From a virus, in IMG/VR virus record IMGVR_UViG_3300031673_000034, positions 1 to 63,070 of that record: DNA of 63,070 bases; one strand, 5' to 3'. The notes beneath the pieces are model-generated. The model searched no databases and was not told where the DNA came from. It worked only from the letters and a program-made list of their open reading frames with translations. The position numbers were made by a program, and so were the translations under genes. This document shows, piece by piece, positions 51,795-61,577 of the stretch. Every line of letters begins with the position of its first letter. Positions within the stretch are counted from its first letter, which is position 1.

Positions 51795-51900
51795 ACTACC
51801 CACCCACGCCAAAGGCGATGGGTTTGGCTTCAAGAGTCATTACTCCTACTAATGTAGGCAGTTCGTCTTGACTTTTAAGTCTGTGTTCCCCAGACAAAAT
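51782..51900 (-). ncRNA. Probable omega-RNA region of tnpB
   Basis: In the IS200/IS605 family the guide RNA scaffold comes from the 3' end of tnpB and the right end of the element. Here that region holds the CCCACGCC/GGCGATGGG hairpin. The guide would be the ~16-20 nt just outside, around 51765-51781. Inferred from family knowledge. Confidence 0.45.
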
Positions 51901-52968
51901 ATTTTTTAAAGCAAATGATTTTATGTTACAAGCAGCATTAACATCTCGGTCTAAAACAGTAGAACAACTGCCACAAGTCCATTCACGGTCTTTTAGTTGT
52001 AGTTCATTGTTGATAGCCCCACAGTTTGAACAAGTTTTTGAAGATGGTGCAAATTGTCCTATTCGTAGGATATTTTTACCATACCAACCAGCTTTATATT
52101 CCAACATAGAAACAAAAGTTGACCAACTTACATCATTAATTGCTTGTGCTAAATTGTGGTTTTTAACCATATTTTTAACCGCTAAAGTTTCAAGGGCTAT
52201 CGTTTGGTTCTCACGAATTAATTTAGTTGAAACTTTGTGTAAAAAATCTTTGCGTTTGTTTACTACATCTTCATGTAATTTGGCAAGTTTCTTTTTAGTT
52301 CGCTTGCCTTTGTGTTTTGAGTATTTACGTTGTACATATTTTAATTTACTTTGTGCTTTACGAAGAAATTTAGGATTATCAAATACCTCTCCATCTGAGG
52401 TAATGGCAAAGTCTTTTATTCCAAGGTCAATACCTATTGTGGTGTTTTCATTAATAGAAACCTTAATTGGCATATCTTCTTTAGTATCACAAAGTATTGA
52501 CACGAAGTATTTACCTGTAGGTGTTACACTGATAGTTCCACTTTTTACAATACCTTGTGTAGGTTTATGTAAAAATATTTTAATACCCTCTTTAAACTTT
52601 GGTATTATCAAAAGATTATTTTCAACTATTACATTTTGTGGTATTGAAAAAGATTGTCTATCTCTTTTAGACTTAAATTTTGGAAAACCAGCTCCTTTAA
52701 AGAATTTCTTAAAAGCAATATCCATATTTTGTATAGATTGTTGTAAGCTTTGTGAGTTTACTTCTTTTAGCCAAGGACATTCTTTTTTAAGTTCTGGTAA
52801 TTGTTTAATTAAATCGAAAGGGCTGTAGTTATGTTTGTTACCAATATATGCAGCGTTTTTAGTTTCCAACGCAAGATTAAACACAAAACGACTACTACCA
52901 ATATGTTTGGCAATAAGCTCTTTTTGTGGCTCGGTTGGGTAAATTCTGTATTTGAACGATTTAAACAT
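51796..52968 (-). CDS. tnpB: TnpB RNA-guided nuclease
   Basis: 390 residues, full length for the family. RuvC-I GIDLGIKDFA (D181), RuvC-II ALETLAVKN (E260), zinc finger C313/C316 and C332/C335, RuvC-III LDRDVNAACN (D342) are all present, so it looks catalytically intact. The N-terminus FKSFKYRIYPTEPQKELI is the usual helix-turn-helix start. Higher GC and opposite orientation mark it as acquired. Confidence 0.9.
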   Translation of the reverse strand: MFKSFKYRIYPTEPQKELIAKHIGSSRFVFNLALETKNAAYIGNKHNYSPFDLIKQLPELKKECPWLKEVNSQSLQQSIQNMDIAFKKFFKGAGFPKFKSKRDRQSFSIPQNVIVENNLLIIPKFKEGIKIFLHKPTQGIVKSGTISVTPTGKYFVSILCDTKEDMPIKVSINENTTIGIDLGIKDFAITSDGEVFDNPKFLRKAQSKLKYVQRKYSKHKGKRTKKKLAKLHEDVVNKRKDFLHKVSTKLIRENQTIALETLAVKNMVKNHNLAQAINDVSWSTFVSMLEYKAGWYGKNILRIGQFAPSSKTCSNCGAINNELQLKDREWTCGSCSTVLDRDVNAACNIKSFALKNILSGEHRLKSQDELPTLVGVMTLEAKPIAFGVGG

Positions 52969-55679: not shown

Positions 55680-56702
55680 ATGTTTAAAACAAATGGACTA
55701 TTAACAATAGAAAATATTCTTGAAAGAGTTAGTCCATTAGATATATATAAGAAATATTCAAAGTATTTTCAAAAGATAGGAAAACATTTTAAAGCTGAAT
55801 TTAGAAATGATCCAAATCCAAGTGCTGTTATCTCATATTTTAATGGCACTTATTTATATAAAGACTTTGGTGAAGATGGGGCTTTAAATTGTTTCCAATT
55901 TGTTAGTAGAAAATATGGATTAACTTTTAAAGAAGTATTAGAAAAAATAAATATTGATTTTAATCTGTATTTAAGAGGTTCAGGAAGTAATAATTATACT
56001 AAGTATTCAGAACAACAAATTCATACAGTTGAATATGAGGATTACAAAACAATATTAACAATTAAAAAGAGAGAACTTCTTCAGCATGATTTAGAATGGT
56101 GGGGTAGTCAGTCATGGGCTGAAAATATGCTTATTAAAGCTAATATAAATCCAATTTCTTATTTCAGATTAACTTCTGAAAAAAAGAATATATATGAAAA
56201 ATTATATGTATGTGATGATTATTCATATAGTATGGATTATTATTGGCATAATGGAATATTCAGAAGGAAGTTGTATTTTCCACAAAAACCATCTTATAGA
56301 AAGTGGTTGTCAAATGTTGATAATACAATCGTACAGGGATGGGATTTATTGCCAAAAAGTGGAGATATATGCTTTATAACAAGTAGTTTTAAAGATACAG
56401 GGCCATTTTGGAGAATATATAATAAACCAATAGCAATAGCTCCAAATAATGAAGGATCTTGGATACCAGACAAAGTATTCTATAAACTTAAAAAAAGATA
56501 TCCAAATCTTGTAATTTATTTTGATAATGATGAAGCTGGAATAAAATATGCAAAGAAGTTTTCTCAAATTTATCAAATACCATACATACATAATCCATTA
56601 CGTGCACCAAAAGACCCCACAGACATGTGGTATAAAGATGGTGGACGTGAGTTTAATTTTTATTTACAAAATCAGTTAACAGATTTAAAAATCAAATTAT
56701 GA
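55680..56702 (+). CDS. DnaG-like primase with TOPRIM domain
   Basis: 340 residues. The N-terminal ~95 residues read like the CHC2 primase domain (FRNDPNPSAVISYFNGTYLY, FQFVSRKYGLTFKEVLEKI) but lack the zinc ligands. The TOPRIM part has ICFITSSFKDTGPF, IAIAPNNEGSW and VIYFDNDEAGIKYAK (DND near residue 280). This variant of the acidic triad is seen in phage/plasmid primases. Stop and next start overlap (ATGA). Confidence 0.8.
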   Translation: MFKTNGLLTIENILERVSPLDIYKKYSKYFQKIGKHFKAEFRNDPNPSAVISYFNGTYLYKDFGEDGALNCFQFVSRKYGLTFKEVLEKINIDFNLYLRGSGSNNYTKYSEQQIHTVEYEDYKTILTIKKRELLQHDLEWWGSQSWAENMLIKANINPISYFRLTSEKKNIYEKLYVCDDYSYSMDYYWHNGIFRRKLYFPQKPSYRKWLSNVDNTIVQGWDLLPKSGDICFITSSFKDTGPFWRIYNKPIAIAPNNEGSWIPDKVFYKLKKRYPNLVIYFDNDEAGIKYAKKFSQIYQIPYIHNPLRAPKDPTDMWYKDGGREFNFYLQNQLTDLKIKL

Positions 56703-57235
56703 CAACAAAAAGAACAATTAAATTAAAGTTATTAACTCAAACTGAGTTAGTGAAAGTAGAAACATCAGCTCGTACATTAGGTGAGTTAAAAGAAGAAATT
56801 ACTGAATTAGGTATTGATTGGAGTTCATCAAAGCTAATTGACAGAGCTTCTAAAGCTTCATTTGAAGTAGACCAAGCAGTATTACCAGAAATTGATTCAG
56901 TAATGTTTGTAATGCCAACTAAATCAAAAGCAGGAGCATTAGGTTATTGGGAAGCAAGAGATGCAGTTAAAGAATATAAAGATAATGGTGGTGATGTTCC
57001 ATTTAATTATACTCATAAAACTACTCAAGAACTGAATGAATTTCTTGATACGATTGAAAAAAACAATAATCAAGCAGAAGAAGTAGATGAAATTCATTTA
57101 TATCCAGGAACTTATATTTTAAAGGTTATGAGTAATGAAACTGAACCAAAAGCCACTAATAAAGTAAAATTATTGGATGAAACGACTGAAGACGACATAG
57201 ATTTTGAAGCACAACAATTATTAAATTTGTTTTAA
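56699..57235 (+). CDS. Ubiquitin-like (beta-grasp, PRTRC-C-like) protein with C-terminal extension
   Basis: 178 residues. Residues ~6-75 follow the beta-grasp order: IKLKLLTQ, VKVETSARTLGELKEEITEL (strand then helix), then SVMFVMPTKSKAG, close in style to PRTRC protein C, a predicted ubiquitin-like protein. A ~100-residue extension follows G79. The next genes encode a JAMM peptidase and an E1-like protein, so it is the obvious modifier of this set. Confidence 0.6.
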   Translation: MTTKRTIKLKLLTQTELVKVETSARTLGELKEEITELGIDWSSSKLIDRASKASFEVDQAVLPEIDSVMFVMPTKSKAGALGYWEARDAVKEYKDNGGDVPFNYTHKTTQELNEFLDTIEKNNNQAEEVDEIHLYPGTYILKVMSNETEPKATNKVKLLDETTEDDIDFEAQQLLNLF

Positions 57236-57241
57236 CCAAAT

Positions 57242-57264
57242 AGAGGGGAGAAATCCCCTCTTTT
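57242..57264 (+). terminator. Rho-independent terminator
   Basis: AGAGGGG / CCCCTCT with a short loop followed by TTTT, right after the ubiquitin-like gene and before the rest of the cluster; partial termination would make this protein more abundant than its enzymes. Confidence 0.75.
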
Positions 57265-57279
57265 AAAAAATATTAATGT

Positions 57280-58491
57280 ATGGTACTTCCAGAAGAAATA
57301 TTAAGACTTTCTGATAAAGAATTAGATAAATTACCAAATAATGTTTATCAAAGTAAATATGTAATGTATAACAAACAATATATTTTCAAGAAAGAAGGAA
57401 GAGTAGCAAATAAAATGTATTATTCGGATGTAAATAATAAAGTGTCACCTATTGCATTTTCAATTAAAGATTTAAGTAGTCAAGTTAAACCATTAACTAA
57501 AAAAGAAGTTCATGATATAAAATTAAATAATATCATAGATTCTGTAGACAAAATGTCTGATGAAAAACTTAGAACATTTTATTTGAATAAAGCAATAGAA
57601 GTATTTGGTGAAGAATATGTAGATTTACAAAATGATAATAGCTACAAAGATGGTTATAGATATAGTATAATTATATGGATTCCTTCTGTAATAATTTCAA
57701 ATTCATTTGAACAATCTCTTGAGATGAAAGATTTATATATGAAATTAACATTTAGTAATAAAAGATTACATTATTTACAGTTTGCAAGAACTACAGTGTC
57801 GGAAAGAGAATTAAGAAATAGTTATATATTTTCACATCTATCTCACTCACACATTGGAACATATGATAATGATTTATGTATGGGAGATACTCAAATAAAA
57901 AATGTATTTGATAGAACTAGAAATTCAACAAAACATTGTTTTTTAAATATTGTTCCATTCTATTACTTATTAAAAGAATATATTTCTTGGGAAAGTATTG
58001 AGGGAGTTCCATATAGAAAGATTGATAATGTACTATGTGATGAAAATAGATTTAAAGAAGCAGACATTGAATATTTTTATGATGCAAATACAGTTTATTT
58101 ATTATTGTTATCGCATATCAATGATTTTAGTTTTATTTATAATATAAATGATATTGATTATTATGATATTAAATTATCAGATGATTCTAAAGATCATATT
58201 CGTAAAGTTTTAAATGAGATTGTTCCTGAACATTATTTATATTCTTATAGGAATGGAATTTCAGTAACTGAAAATTTTGAACAGAATTATTTTTATAAAA
58301 GATATAATGATACAGGTTCTGAAGTAATGTTTAAGGAAGAAAATATCAAAAACATAGTAATTCCAGATGATGATTTAGAAAATAATTTAGAAAAATCAAT
58401 ACATGTTGATATATTAAATGAAGTTATTAGTAAGATAGAAGAAGAATTTTCACAATATATAATTAATAAAAAACTAAAACAACGTGGATAA
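57280..58491 (+). CDS. PRTRC-B/E2-like protein of the ubiquitin-like cluster (tentative)
   Basis: 403 residues. The middle part (residues ~125-215) has a beta-rich segment IIIWIPSVIISN, then FARTTVSERELRNSYIFSHL, then HSHIGTYDNDLCMGD. A histidine followed by a C in an L-C-x-G context recalls the E2/PRTRC-B region of bacterial ubiquitin-like operons. Flanking helical segments are unassigned. Its place between modifier and peptidase supports an E2-like or adaptor role, but it is unproven. Confidence 0.4.
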   Translation: MVLPEEILRLSDKELDKLPNNVYQSKYVMYNKQYIFKKEGRVANKMYYSDVNNKVSPIAFSIKDLSSQVKPLTKKEVHDIKLNNIIDSVDKMSDEKLRTFYLNKAIEVFGEEYVDLQNDNSYKDGYRYSIIIWIPSVIISNSFEQSLEMKDLYMKLTFSNKRLHYLQFARTTVSERELRNSYIFSHLSHSHIGTYDNDLCMGDTQIKNVFDRTRNSTKHCFLNIVPFYYLLKEYISWESIEGVPYRKIDNVLCDENRFKEADIEYFYDANTVYLLLLSHINDFSFIYNINDIDYYDIKLSDDSKDHIRKVLNEIVPEHYLYSYRNGISVTENFEQNYFYKRYNDTGSEVMFKEENIKNIVIPDDDLENNLEKSIHVDILNEVISKIEEEFSQYIINKKLKQRG

Positions 58492-59560
58492 AAAAACTCA
58501 AGAATTAGGAACAATAGGTAAAATAGTATTAGATGAAGAAATTATTAATGTAATAGATAATCTTCATTCTGCTATTGGTAGTACAGAATGGTCTGGAATA
58601 TTATTTTACAAATTAACAAAAGGTAACTTGTTTCAAATGAAAGATTTGGAATTTACAGTTGATTTTATATTTCCAATGAATATTGGTAGTCATACATATA
58701 CTGAATTCGAATATTCTGGTAAAGTAATGGATGCTTATGATATTAATGAAAATTTAATTAATAGTAATAGTGGTATGGTGCATACGCATCATAATATGCA
58801 AGCGTTTTTTAGTAACACCGATTCTGATGAATTATTATCAAATGCTACAAACTTTAATTATTATTTATCATTGATTGTTAGTTTTGATAGAAAATATAAA
58901 TGTAAAGTTGCATTTCCATCTAAAACTAAAGTATTGTATAATTCATCCATTAAATGTACGGATGGTAAATTAATTAATATTAAATCATCTACAGAAGAAG
59001 ATATTATTCTTATTGGAGATTTAGATATTGATATGCCTACAAAATTCAATAGTATTAATTGGTTGAATAAAAGAATTGATGAACTTAAAAAAGAAAAAAC
59101 AGCAATTAAACCAGTACAAACATTTGGTCAGCAATCTTGGCAAAAACAATATAATTTCAAAGAAGATTGGAATGATGATTATAATGCAGGATGGCTAAAT
59201 CAAGGTGGGAATAGTGATTTACAAACATTAACAAAGACTTATAAGAAAACAGGAACTGTTGATAATTTTCTTAAAAAGTTAATTTCATTAAATTCTGGTA
59301 AATATTATTCAAGTATTGGAGATGCAATGGAGAAAATTAATAATGAATTATCAAAAGATGAAGAAATTGCTTATGATGAATACGAAGTTGCTATGGAAAC
59401 TAATTTAGAAATTATTCATGATTTTGAATTTGGATCAGATTCTAATTTACGTAAAAATTGCCTTGAAGCATGTTCTAAAATGGAAGATTTAAGAGATAAA
59501 TTTGAAACTAATCCAATATTTGATATAACTATTAATAATTTACTTTATGGAATACAATGA
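58484..59560 (+). CDS. JAMM/MPN+ metallopeptidase (JAB domain)
   Basis: 358 residues starting at GTG 58484 (no nearby ATG), overlapping the upstream stop. E35 (STEWSG), H100-T-H102, S110 and D113 complete the JAMM zinc site E...HxHx7SxxD, so the enzyme looks active. JAB proteins cut ubiquitin-like modifiers from precursors or targets. The C-terminal ~180 residues are an unassigned helical region. PRTRC protein A is a comparable family. Confidence 0.8.
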   Translation: MDKKTQELGTIGKIVLDEEIINVIDNLHSAIGSTEWSGILFYKLTKGNLFQMKDLEFTVDFIFPMNIGSHTYTEFEYSGKVMDAYDINENLINSNSGMVHTHHNMQAFFSNTDSDELLSNATNFNYYLSLIVSFDRKYKCKVAFPSKTKVLYNSSIKCTDGKLINIKSSTEEDIILIGDLDIDMPTKFNSINWLNKRIDELKKEKTAIKPVQTFGQQSWQKQYNFKEDWNDDYNAGWLNQGGNSDLQTLTKTYKKTGTVDNFLKKLISLNSGKYYSSIGDAMEKINNELSKDEEIAYDEYEVAMETNLEIIHDFEFGSDSNLRKNCLEACSKMEDLRDKFETNPIFDITINNLLYGIQ

Positions 59561-60206
59561 TAGATTTAAAGATGCTCCTTGGTATGAAAAAAGTTCAAAT
59601 GAGCATATAATATTAGTTGGAACTGGTGGAATTGGATCAAATGCATTATTTGCATTAACCAAAACAGTTCCAGCAACTTATTGGATATATGATCCAGATA
59701 AAGTTGAAGCTATAAATATTGGAACTCAAAATTTCAAAAAAAATCAAATTGGTAAATATAAAGTTAGTTCTATTTTACAAAATTGTCAAGAACAATCTAA
59801 TTGTTCAATAAGGCAATTCAATTCAAAATATAATAATGAGTATTTTCCAATTATGATTACTGGATTGGATAATATGGCTACCAGAAAACAAGTATTTGAA
59901 AAATGGAGTAAACAGGATAATAGAGAATTGCTGATTGACGGGAGATTAAGAGCGAACCTATATGAAGTATATGTAGTTACTAAAGGTAGGGAAGAACAAT
60001 ATGAGGCTACATTATTTGATGATTCAGAAGTAGATGATGGACCATGTACATTTAAACAAACTGCTTATTTTGGAATGCTAATAGGAGCTAGAATTACTCA
60101 TGTATTGGTTAATTATTTAATTAATAAATATGCAAATGAAGAAATATGTAATCTTCCATTTAAAATAAGCGAATTTGGAGAACCATTTTTAATTGAAGTA
60201 TTATGA
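59547..60206 (+). CDS. E1/ThiF-like adenylating protein
   Basis: 219 residues. GTGGIGSN at residues 25-32 is the nucleotide-binding loop, D49/D51 (IYDPDKV) the strand-end aspartates, N57/Q61 the usual NxxxQ, and GPCTFKQTAY carries a candidate catalytic cysteine. Single-domain E1-like proteins of this size activate the C-terminus of small beta-grasp proteins. Overlaps the JAMM gene and the next gene. Confidence 0.85.
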   Translation: MEYNDRFKDAPWYEKSSNEHIILVGTGGIGSNALFALTKTVPATYWIYDPDKVEAINIGTQNFKKNQIGKYKVSSILQNCQEQSNCSIRQFNSKYNNEYFPIMITGLDNMATRKQVFEKWSKQDNRELLIDGRLRANLYEVYVVTKGREEQYEATLFDDSEVDDGPCTFKQTAYFGMLIGARITHVLVNYLINKYANEEICNLPFKISEFGEPFLIEVL

Positions 60207-60718
60207 TTATACAAAAGACAAAAGAATATATTCCATATTGTTTTAATCAAAGGGGATTTAAAACCAGAAAATATTTTCAGATTAATTCTAATACTAAACG
60301 TAGATATGTTCATGATTTAAAAGATAAATTCAACTTTGAAGAAATATTATCTGTAGATGGAAGCCTTATTACAAACAATTCAACAGCAGAGTATTATGTT
60401 GGTAATGGGATCATACGTAATAGCCTTGATGCAATGGGACTAATTGTTTGTTATAATAGAAATAATCTAGAACTTCCAATGGCTTTAATTGATAAATCAA
60501 ACTTATCTAGTGGTGATTATAGAAGAATCATTACTGCAATTAACAAATTTGGATGGAGCAGTAGAAAGCAGGTTATTAATATGAGAAATCTTAATGATAT
60601 ATTTGGAGTTGATTTATTAAAGTCTACTATGGAAGATTATGACAAAGAAAAACAATTAAATCTTAGTAAAGAATTTATAGAATATGCAAGACCAACAGAA
60701 GAAGTTAGTATTAGTTGA
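60203..60718 (+). CDS. Hypothetical protein coupled to the ThiF-like gene
   Basis: 171 residues, mixed alpha/beta. The segment VGNGIIRNSLDAMGLIVCYN has some regularity but no known motif. Its ATGA overlap with the E1-like gene suggests it belongs to the same functional unit, perhaps as target or adaptor. Also overlaps the following nuclease gene. Confidence 0.5.
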   Translation: MIIQKTKEYIPYCFNQRGFKTRKYFQINSNTKRRYVHDLKDKFNFEEILSVDGSLITNNSTAEYYVGNGIIRNSLDAMGLIVCYNRNNLELPMALIDKSNLSSGDYRRIITAINKFGWSSRKQVINMRNLNDIFGVDLLKSTMEDYDKEKQLNLSKEFIEYARPTEEVSIS

Positions 60719-61577
60719 TGCAGATGGACTAGTTTATCATAGTAGTAAAAATACATTAGAGGAAAGTATAAATATTCTGGATGAAAAAATCCAGAATATT
60801 TTTATTAAAACAGAAGCAACTCATTATGTATTTTTTATTAGTAAAGATAAATATTTTCGTCACAACATTGATCCATTATATAAGTCAAATCGAAGTAAGT
60901 ATCCAACTCAATTAAAATGGATTAAAACACTTAAATCTTATTTAATAGAGAATTGGAATGCTCAATGGATGGATTTAATGGAATCCGATGATTTGATAGC
61001 ATATTGGATAAATAATGATTTGAAAGAAAATATCTTAGATGATGATATAACATATTTTGATAAAATATTAGTTTCTCCAGATAAAGATTTATTACAAAGT
61101 ATTCCAGGCAAAAATTTTAATTATACCTATAAGCTAAAAGATGATATTAAAGCATTAGTTAAAGAAGATGTAATGTATCAGATTCAAGAGGAAGATGTAA
61201 TTAAAGGTTGGTGGATTGAAACTTCAATAGAAGATTCTTTAAAATGGCAAAGTTTTCAATTAATATCTGGAGATGCTGGAGATAATGTTATAACTCCATT
61301 CCCTGAGAATTGTGGAATATTCAATAATAAATTAGATTCACATGAAATACTACATGGATATATATGGGGAATGTACTATGAAACACCAAGTGGACAAAAG
61401 AAAACAATTGATGGACTTGGTAGATCAAAAGGAGTTTATGAATTTCAAAAGAATTATCGACTTTTACATTTATTAGATTGCAATGATGATTTCATGCGAG
61501 AAATTGGCCGATTACCAGAATTTCCAATAATAACAGAAATACAAAAACTGAATGAAGAAATAAAAATAGACTTTTAA
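60684..61577 (+). CDS. FEN/T5-type 5'-3' exonuclease
   Basis: 297 residues. LVDADGLVYHSS (N-terminal D), MESDDLIAYW, ILVSPDKDLLQ and LISGDAGDN are the metal-binding acid motifs of the flap-nuclease/PIN-like 5' exonuclease family used by phages to remove RNA primers. crAss-like phages carry such enzymes next to the primase. Confidence 0.85.
   Translation: MQDQQKKLVLVDADGLVYHSSKNTLEESINILDEKIQNIFIKTEATHYVFFISKDKYFRHNIDPLYKSNRSKYPTQLKWIKTLKSYLIENWNAQWMDLMESDDLIAYWINNDLKENILDDDITYFDKILVSPDKDLLQSIPGKNFNYTYKLKDDIKALVKEDVMYQIQEEDVIKGWWIETSIEDSLKWQSFQLISGDAGDNVITPFPENCGIFNNKLDSHEILHGYIWGMYYETPSGQKKTIDGLGRSKGVYEFQKNYRLLHLLDCNDDFMREIGRLPEFPIITEIQKLNEEIKIDF

Follow-up and report, generated by a model that had tools for sequence, protein, structure and literature searches.

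The window analyzed here is a 63 kb stretch of DNA, the IMG/VR virus record IMGVR_UViG_3300031673_000034, and it contains a cassette of five co-directional genes on the + strand that encode a ubiquitin-like protein (UBL), an E2-like protein, a JAMM metallopeptidase, an E1 and a fifth protein designated protein X. A first-pass annotation had placed five open reading frames (ORFs) in a row at positions 56699-60718, between a primase and a 5' exonuclease, and had read them as a ubiquitin-like conjugation cluster inside a phage replication operon. All five were located there on the + strand (Table 1), and the reading as such a cluster was well supported by the recurrent gene order, the conserved catalytic residues and the fold of the UBL. 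The overlapping starts that had been described were observed at every junction but one, since the UBL and E2-like genes are separated by a gap of 44 nt.

Table 1. Coordinates of the cassette genes, the predicted parts of the UBL precursor and the flanking genes
Feature	Position in window	Strand	Evidence
UBL precursor, 178 aa	56699..57235	+	AlphaFold, Foldseek, PHROG 15560 (2e-7)
Predicted mature UBL, residues 1-79, ending ...PTKSKAG79	56699..56935	+	Gly79 conservation, short relatives; Gly79 codon verified
UBL C-terminal extension, residues 80-178, predicted to be removed	56936..57232	+	Gene fissions in relatives
E2-like protein, 403 aa	57280..58491	+	His/Cys motif, model topology, position
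JAMM (JAB) metallopeptidase, 358 aa, GTG start	58484..59560	+	Prok-JAB, five active-site residues
Minimal E1 (ThiF fold), 219 aa	59547..60206	+	Pfam ThiF (3.7e-13)
Protein X (ORF5), 171 aa, fifth cassette gene	60203..60718	+	hhalign to crAss001 gp75 / Fpv families
DNA primase, upstream neighbor	55680..56702	+	PHROG DNA primase (3.3e-30); Pfam Toprim_2 (6e-5)
5'-3' exonuclease, downstream flank	60684..61577	+	Pfam 5_3_exonuc_N (7e-11)

The source of the window is a crAss-like phage. Its terminase, portal and major head protein matched head and packaging families of PHROG, and its E1 and gene order matched those of Crassvirales and of the Fpv phages of Flavobacterium psychrophilum. An E1 with 100% identity was present on another IMG/VR contig of 95.7 kb. 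The crAss-like identity of the phage, a wide family with cultured phages among its members, the predicted processing site at Gly79 of the UBL, gene fissions in relatives and an exchangeable ligase cassette go beyond the first-pass annotation and are described below.

Proteins of the cassette

A beta-grasp fold of the 178-residue protein had been set beforehand as the test on which the first-pass annotation could fail, and the protein was modeled as ubiquitin-like. In the AlphaFold model, built from 76 sequences (window and IMG/VR), residues 1-70 showed a predicted local distance difference test (pLDDT) score of 94-98 and the topology of ubiquitin, with strands at residues 5-10 and 17-22, a helix at 27-33, and strands at 44-48 and 67-73 (beta-beta-alpha-beta-beta). 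Foldseek matched the model to ubiquitin, NEDD8, SUMO and UBX structures in the PDB with a probability of 1.00 and a template modeling (TM) score, on the target, of up to 0.73. On this model, the UBL is a ubiquitin-fold (beta-grasp) modifier. When 76 UBL proteins were scanned with Pfam, only scattered matches were obtained, which we read as noise; the alignment profile found nothing credible among PDB sequences, and hhalign gave no significant profile match to PRTRC_C.

The last strand of the UBL is followed by the motif K-h-K-S-G, which reads K-I-K-S-G in crAss001 and whose glycine, Gly79, was kept in 150 of 151 non-redundant relatives (99%). Residues 80-178 form a variable, partly helical extension. 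In 19 of these 151 relatives the ORF ends 1-5 residues past the glycine, and in many of the short-UBL relatives the extension is a separate small ORF, typically with a TAATG stop/start overlap (for example in loci L195, L109, L042, L118, L059 and L196). We considered that the short ORFs might be frameshift artefacts, and rejected this because no extension follows the short UBL in L159, L218 and L213, and because many others restart as a new ORF with its ATG overlapping the stop. The natural split of the gene just past Gly79 suggests that this residue is the C-terminus of the mature protein and that the JAMM peptidase is the likely maturase or deconjugase; Gly79 thus marks the predicted mature C-terminus. 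In two loci (L074 after 4012 and L131 after 6406), ORFs that by eye resemble HNH or GIY-YIG endonucleases lie directly 3' of the KSG/KAG motif of the UBL.

The protein that had been called E1/ThiF-like matched Pfam ThiF (Table 1). It carries GxGGIG at residues 25-30, D49, D51, K72, D108, R113 and the predicted catalytic cysteine Cys167 (60045-60047). The key ATP-site residues and Cys167 were 91-98% conserved among 144 non-redundant relatives, fragments included, with Cys167 itself at 95%. The family profile matched MccB, UBA6, UBA5, ubiquitin E1 and CBASS Cap2 in the PDB, and it aligned with PRTRC ThiF at an hhalign probability of 98.7. Judged by its sequence, with GxGGxG, the Asp/Lys/Arg signature and the putative catalytic cysteine, the protein is an E1 of the ThiF/MoeB superfamily. 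Distant ThiF proteins (about 26% identity) were also seen in large phages, namely Xanthomonas phage PhiXhv-15 (L251, 5953-6636) and Erwinia phage Ep032; the one in PhiXhv-15 lies near DNA topoisomerase genes, without recognizable UBL, E2 or JAMM partners.

All five active-site residues that had been ascribed to the JAMM peptidase are present, as E35...H100-x-H102-x7-S110-xx-D113, with the codons verified. Across 163 non-redundant sequences, with split fragments included, their conservation was 92-94%. Pfam Prok-JAB matched 8 of 11 family members weakly (best 6.5e-5), and the alignment profile found nothing credible among PDB sequences. By its motif, E...HxH(x)7SxxD, the protein is a predicted JAMM/JAB peptidase.

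The JAMM gene is split at or near the active-site HSH codons in L012 (5716-8008), L079 (5278-7558) and about eight other loci. Most of the inserts carry an ORF resembling a LAGLIDADG endonuclease, as a rule on the other strand. The split genes at first appeared to be broken, a reading that was rejected: group I introns are present in both of the inserts that were tested, with Rfam E-values of 2.3e-16, above the gathering score, and 1.6e-9, below that score.

The 403-residue protein has a UBC-like core at about residues 94-235, which includes His186 (57835-57837) and Cys200 (57877-57879). S185, H186, C200 and G202, forming the motif S-H, C-x-G, were 96-98% conserved in 159 non-redundant sequences. 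Its model (mean pLDDT 86) consists of a helix, four strands, a loop with the histidine and the cysteine, and then helices, which is the order of a UBC domain. About 20 of the 50 top Foldseek matches in the PDB were E2 or UEV domains by manual count, none of them significant, and the matches among viral models were uncharacterized proteins of crAss-like phages with no named E2. A Pfam scan of 75 E2-like proteins gave scattered matches, read as noise, and the alignment profile found nothing credible among PDB sequences. The conserved His/Cys motif, the modeled UBC-like topology and the gene position indicate that the protein is likely an E2-like enzyme, short of proof.

Protein X is distantly related to gp75 of crAss001 and to Fpv families (hhalign E-value 2.6e-6). 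Members of these families come directly after E1 in about 160 of 211 loci, and none occurs in the ligase-type loci described below. Protein X therefore appears to belong to the cassette, in which it is possibly an adaptor.

Distribution, conservation and selection

Relatives of E1 (178), E2 (89) and JAMM (110) were obtained by profile scans of IMG/VR, and at most 80 were kept from each. The order primase-UBL-E2-JAMM-E1 was dominant, and these five genes were all present and unsplit in 201 loci, or 125 after removal of near-copies; as the loci were retrieved through E1, E2 or JAMM, these counts do not estimate the frequency of the cassette among crAss-like phages. A fixed order in more than 200 loci, together with near-invariant catalytic residues, makes the cluster far more than a chance association. 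Named phages carrying the E1 include crAss001, DAC15, DAC17, the crAssBcn isolates, Kehishuvirus 'tikkala', Kolpuevirus 'frurule' and the Fpv phages. When 84,980 genomes of bacteria and archaea were scanned, only three short contigs in metagenome-assembled genomes of Spirochaetia, which are probably phage contigs in the bins, and two weak ThiF matches were obtained. At this sensitivity, the family looks phage-specific.

All four proteins were under purifying selection, with median ratios of nonsynonymous to synonymous substitution rates (dN/dS) of 0.18 for E1, 0.26 for JAMM, 0.32 for UBL and 0.49 for E2 (11-12 pairs each). The dN/dS of the E2-like protein is above that of E1, and diversifying targets might explain this. 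Pairwise distances correlated among the cassette proteins at 0.32-0.53, in most cases not above their correlation with the primase (0.32-0.42), so transfer of the cassette as a unit was not demonstrated.

The primase precedes the cassette in most relatives. The downstream flank in crAss001 and many other relatives is a uracil-DNA glycosylase (UDG), in place of the exonuclease of the window. A TnpB-like ORF lies at 51796-52968 of the window on the - strand, opposite to the replication operon (PHROG transposase, 3e-121).

Replacement by an amide-ligase cassette

Cellulophaga phage phi14:2 and the crAss-like phage cr108_1, both Steigviridae, have no E1 anywhere in their genomes. After the primase they carry a cassette of ATP-grasp, COOH-NH2 ligase and glutamine amidotransferase genes, which in phi14:2 stands before UDG; GGACT, Peptidase C26 and amidoligase domains are also found in one or the other of the two cassettes. 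A scan based on the ligase gave 63 loci, and UBL-cassette genes were present in none of them. Many of the 63 come from other phages and lack a nearby primase of this family. After near-copies were removed by primase, 142 UBL-type and 23 ligase-type loci remained, none with both cassettes within the loci, which were at most 19 kb, so that a second cassette farther off would escape. A tree of 96 primases, made by a quick search, required at least eight changes between the UBL and ligase states, five of them forced by strongly supported branches. Neither cassette was seen in the region available from the Suoliviridae phage cr113_1 and the Intestiviridae phage crAss002, and E1 was absent genome-wide from both.

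JAMM in the UBL type and GGACT or C26 in the ligase type are presumably enzymes of a kind able to reverse amide bonds. Both cassettes should form amide bonds and hold a possible reversing enzyme, which suggests that the task of this slot is reversible amide modification. Moreover, the replacement of one amide-forming system by another, unrelated one supports protein modification as the function. A wider proposal would be that crAss-like phages keep an exchangeable amide-tagging slot, filled either by Ubl conjugation or by COOH-NH2-ligase peptide tagging, that in either form acts on one class of proteins, from replication or from the host, with reversible tagging as a core step of the life cycle. 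We advance this wider proposal only tentatively, with slightly more doubt than belief.

Proposed function and comparison with known systems

We consider it likely, with good confidence, that the cassette is a complete and reversible ubiquitin-like conjugation system acting around phage DNA replication. The evidence consists of the gene content and order, the conserved catalytic residues, the modeled ubiquitin fold of the UBL, its gene fissions at the glycine and the replacement by the ligase cassette; the group I introns at the active-site codons of JAMM were counted in favor as well. In the mechanism that we propose, JAMM would trim the UBL precursor after Gly79, and E1 would adenylate Gly79 with ATP and then hold the UBL as a thioester on Cys167. 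The UBL would be handed from there to Cys200 of the E2-like protein, which, perhaps with protein X as an adaptor, would attach it through an amide bond to lysines on proteins of the phage or the host, and JAMM could also take it off these targets. According to a review, the replication genes of crAss001 are expressed before replication starts. The location of the cassette in the replication module, with such a time of expression, suggests that the substrates may be proteins of replication or host proteins that the phage takes over during that phase. Modification of replisome or host proteins had been offered as one possibility in the first-pass annotation, and it fits the fixed position beside the primase and the swap with the amide-ligase cassette.

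Several results weigh against a conjugation system of this kind. No E3 and no substrate was identified. The Arg of N-x-x-R-Q, kept in PRTRC ThiF, is replaced in the phage E1 family (T60 in the window). For the E2-like protein, neither sequence nor fold matched an E2 significantly in family searches, profile comparisons or Foldseek, so the earlier suggestion of a possible E2 holds for motif, topology and position and fails at the level of database matches. The match of this protein to PRTRC_B was weak (hhalign E-value 0.056); the cysteine motif was nonetheless in register.

The absence of a significant E2 match for the 403-residue protein, which also evolves fastest of the four, would agree with a variant in which it is a substrate or a scaffold and E1 transfers the UBL directly. 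The near-invariant His/Cys pair, the UBC-like topology and a position equivalent to that of the E2 in the PRTRC order argue against this, and we regard the variant as unlikely.

Bacterial antiphage systems are built from the same kinds of parts, and the E1-E2 models of PADLOC matched the window E1, weakly. The cassette might thus disturb Bil- or CBASS-type defences of the host, through a decoy UBL, by hijacking E1 or E2, or with JAMM stripping conjugates. However, an active E1 and E2 would be superfluous for a decoy, and the cassette is a fixed block beside the primase in phages of many sources, not a variable accessory gene. It is also exchanged for the amide-ligase cassette, and we know of no link between that cassette and Bil or CBASS defences. 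Counter-defence, which the first-pass annotation had also raised, gained no support here and is quite unlikely in our view.

A sulfur relay, in which the UBL would be a carrier of the ThiS/MoaD type, E1 would form the acyl-adenylate, sulfur on Gly79 would pass to a nucleotide, tRNA or DNA base and JAMM would only process the precursor, was judged very unlikely. The homology of E1 to ThiF/MoeB, the terminal glycine as in ThiS/MoaD, the occurrence of JAMM enzymes in sulfur-assimilation clusters and the location of the slot among nucleotide-metabolism genes are all consistent with it. On the other hand, no CxxC zinc motif occurs among the four cysteines of the window E1, the E2-like gene with its near-invariant His/Cys is present, and the replacement cassette forms amide bonds. 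No sulfurtransferase, thiamine or molybdopterin genes were annotated near the cassette in relatives, where most neighbors are hypothetical proteins and were not searched with models.

Base hypermodification employs glutamine amidotransferases and ligases, and both cassettes adjoin the primase, near UDG, but that both make an amide-linked group for DNA bases or a cofactor, for example for protection of phage DNA, is highly improbable because a small-molecule group is unlikely to be donated by a folded UBL of 79 residues that has an E2-like partner.

Parts of the cassette have been labeled in GenBank: gp76 of crAss001 as 'ThiF', gp77 as a metalloprotease domain protein, and a gene in another crAss-like record as 'E1 enzyme family protein'. 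In the open literature we found no paper linking crAss phages to ubiquitin-like conjugation; a mention in subscription literature, supplements or preprints is possible. Prokaryotic Ubl conjugation has so far mostly been studied as host defence or noted on plasmids, whereas this cassette is conserved within the replication operon across a large group of phages of Bacteroidota, among them cultured relatives of the viruses that are most abundant in the human gut. Should conjugation take place, these phages would encode a ubiquitin-like system together with a dedicated modifier, and the exchange for the amide-ligase cassette would be a natural experiment on the purpose of the tag.

The first-pass annotation had related the set to PRTRC and Bil-type systems. 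In the PRTRC plasmid cassette, Ubl, E2-like, JAB and E1 keep the relative order seen in the phage (PRTRC C-F-B-A-ThiF), the E1s are clearly homologous and the JAMM motif is alike, so that the relation stands for E1 and gene order. It does not extend to the models, none of which reached its NCBIfam cut-off in the phage (PRTRC_ThiF 40.8 bits vs 144.75, PRTRC_A 12.4 vs 101.8), and the phage UBL and E2-like protein had no significant profile match to their PRTRC counterparts. PRTRC is borne on plasmids, while the phage version lies in a replication operon and its UBL has a long, apparently removable extension.

The relation to Bil (BilA-BilB-BilC-BilD) holds by composition, since a review describes the same four-part set of Ubl, E2, JAMM and E1, in which the JAMM BilC trims BilA and exposes its glycine. 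In contrast to the tandem-Ubl BilA, the phage protein has one Ubl domain, and the phage E1, with 219 aa, lacks the pseudodimer and the Cys-domain insert of BilD. Bil also acts on the side of host defence, whereas the present cassette is phage-encoded. CBASS Cap2/Cap3 shares E1-type activation and JAMM deconjugation with the phage set, but Cap2 is an E1-E2 fusion and the modifier is cGAS, in place of separate genes and a dedicated Ubl.

Among phages, a Ubl beside a JAB peptidase is known from the lambda-type tail proteins TAPI/TAPK (Iyer 2006, PMC1779556). Those pairs belong to tail assembly clusters, in which no E1 or E2 was described, whereas the full set is found here in a replication operon. 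The COOH-NH2 ligase/amidoligase cassettes of the phiEco32 type occupy the same slot beside the primase in related crAss-like phages, with enzymes unrelated to those of the UBL cassette and no Ubl. We concluded that the cassette is a new, phage-borne variant of ubiquitin-like conjugation as known from prokaryotes, and that it is widespread among crAss-like phages.

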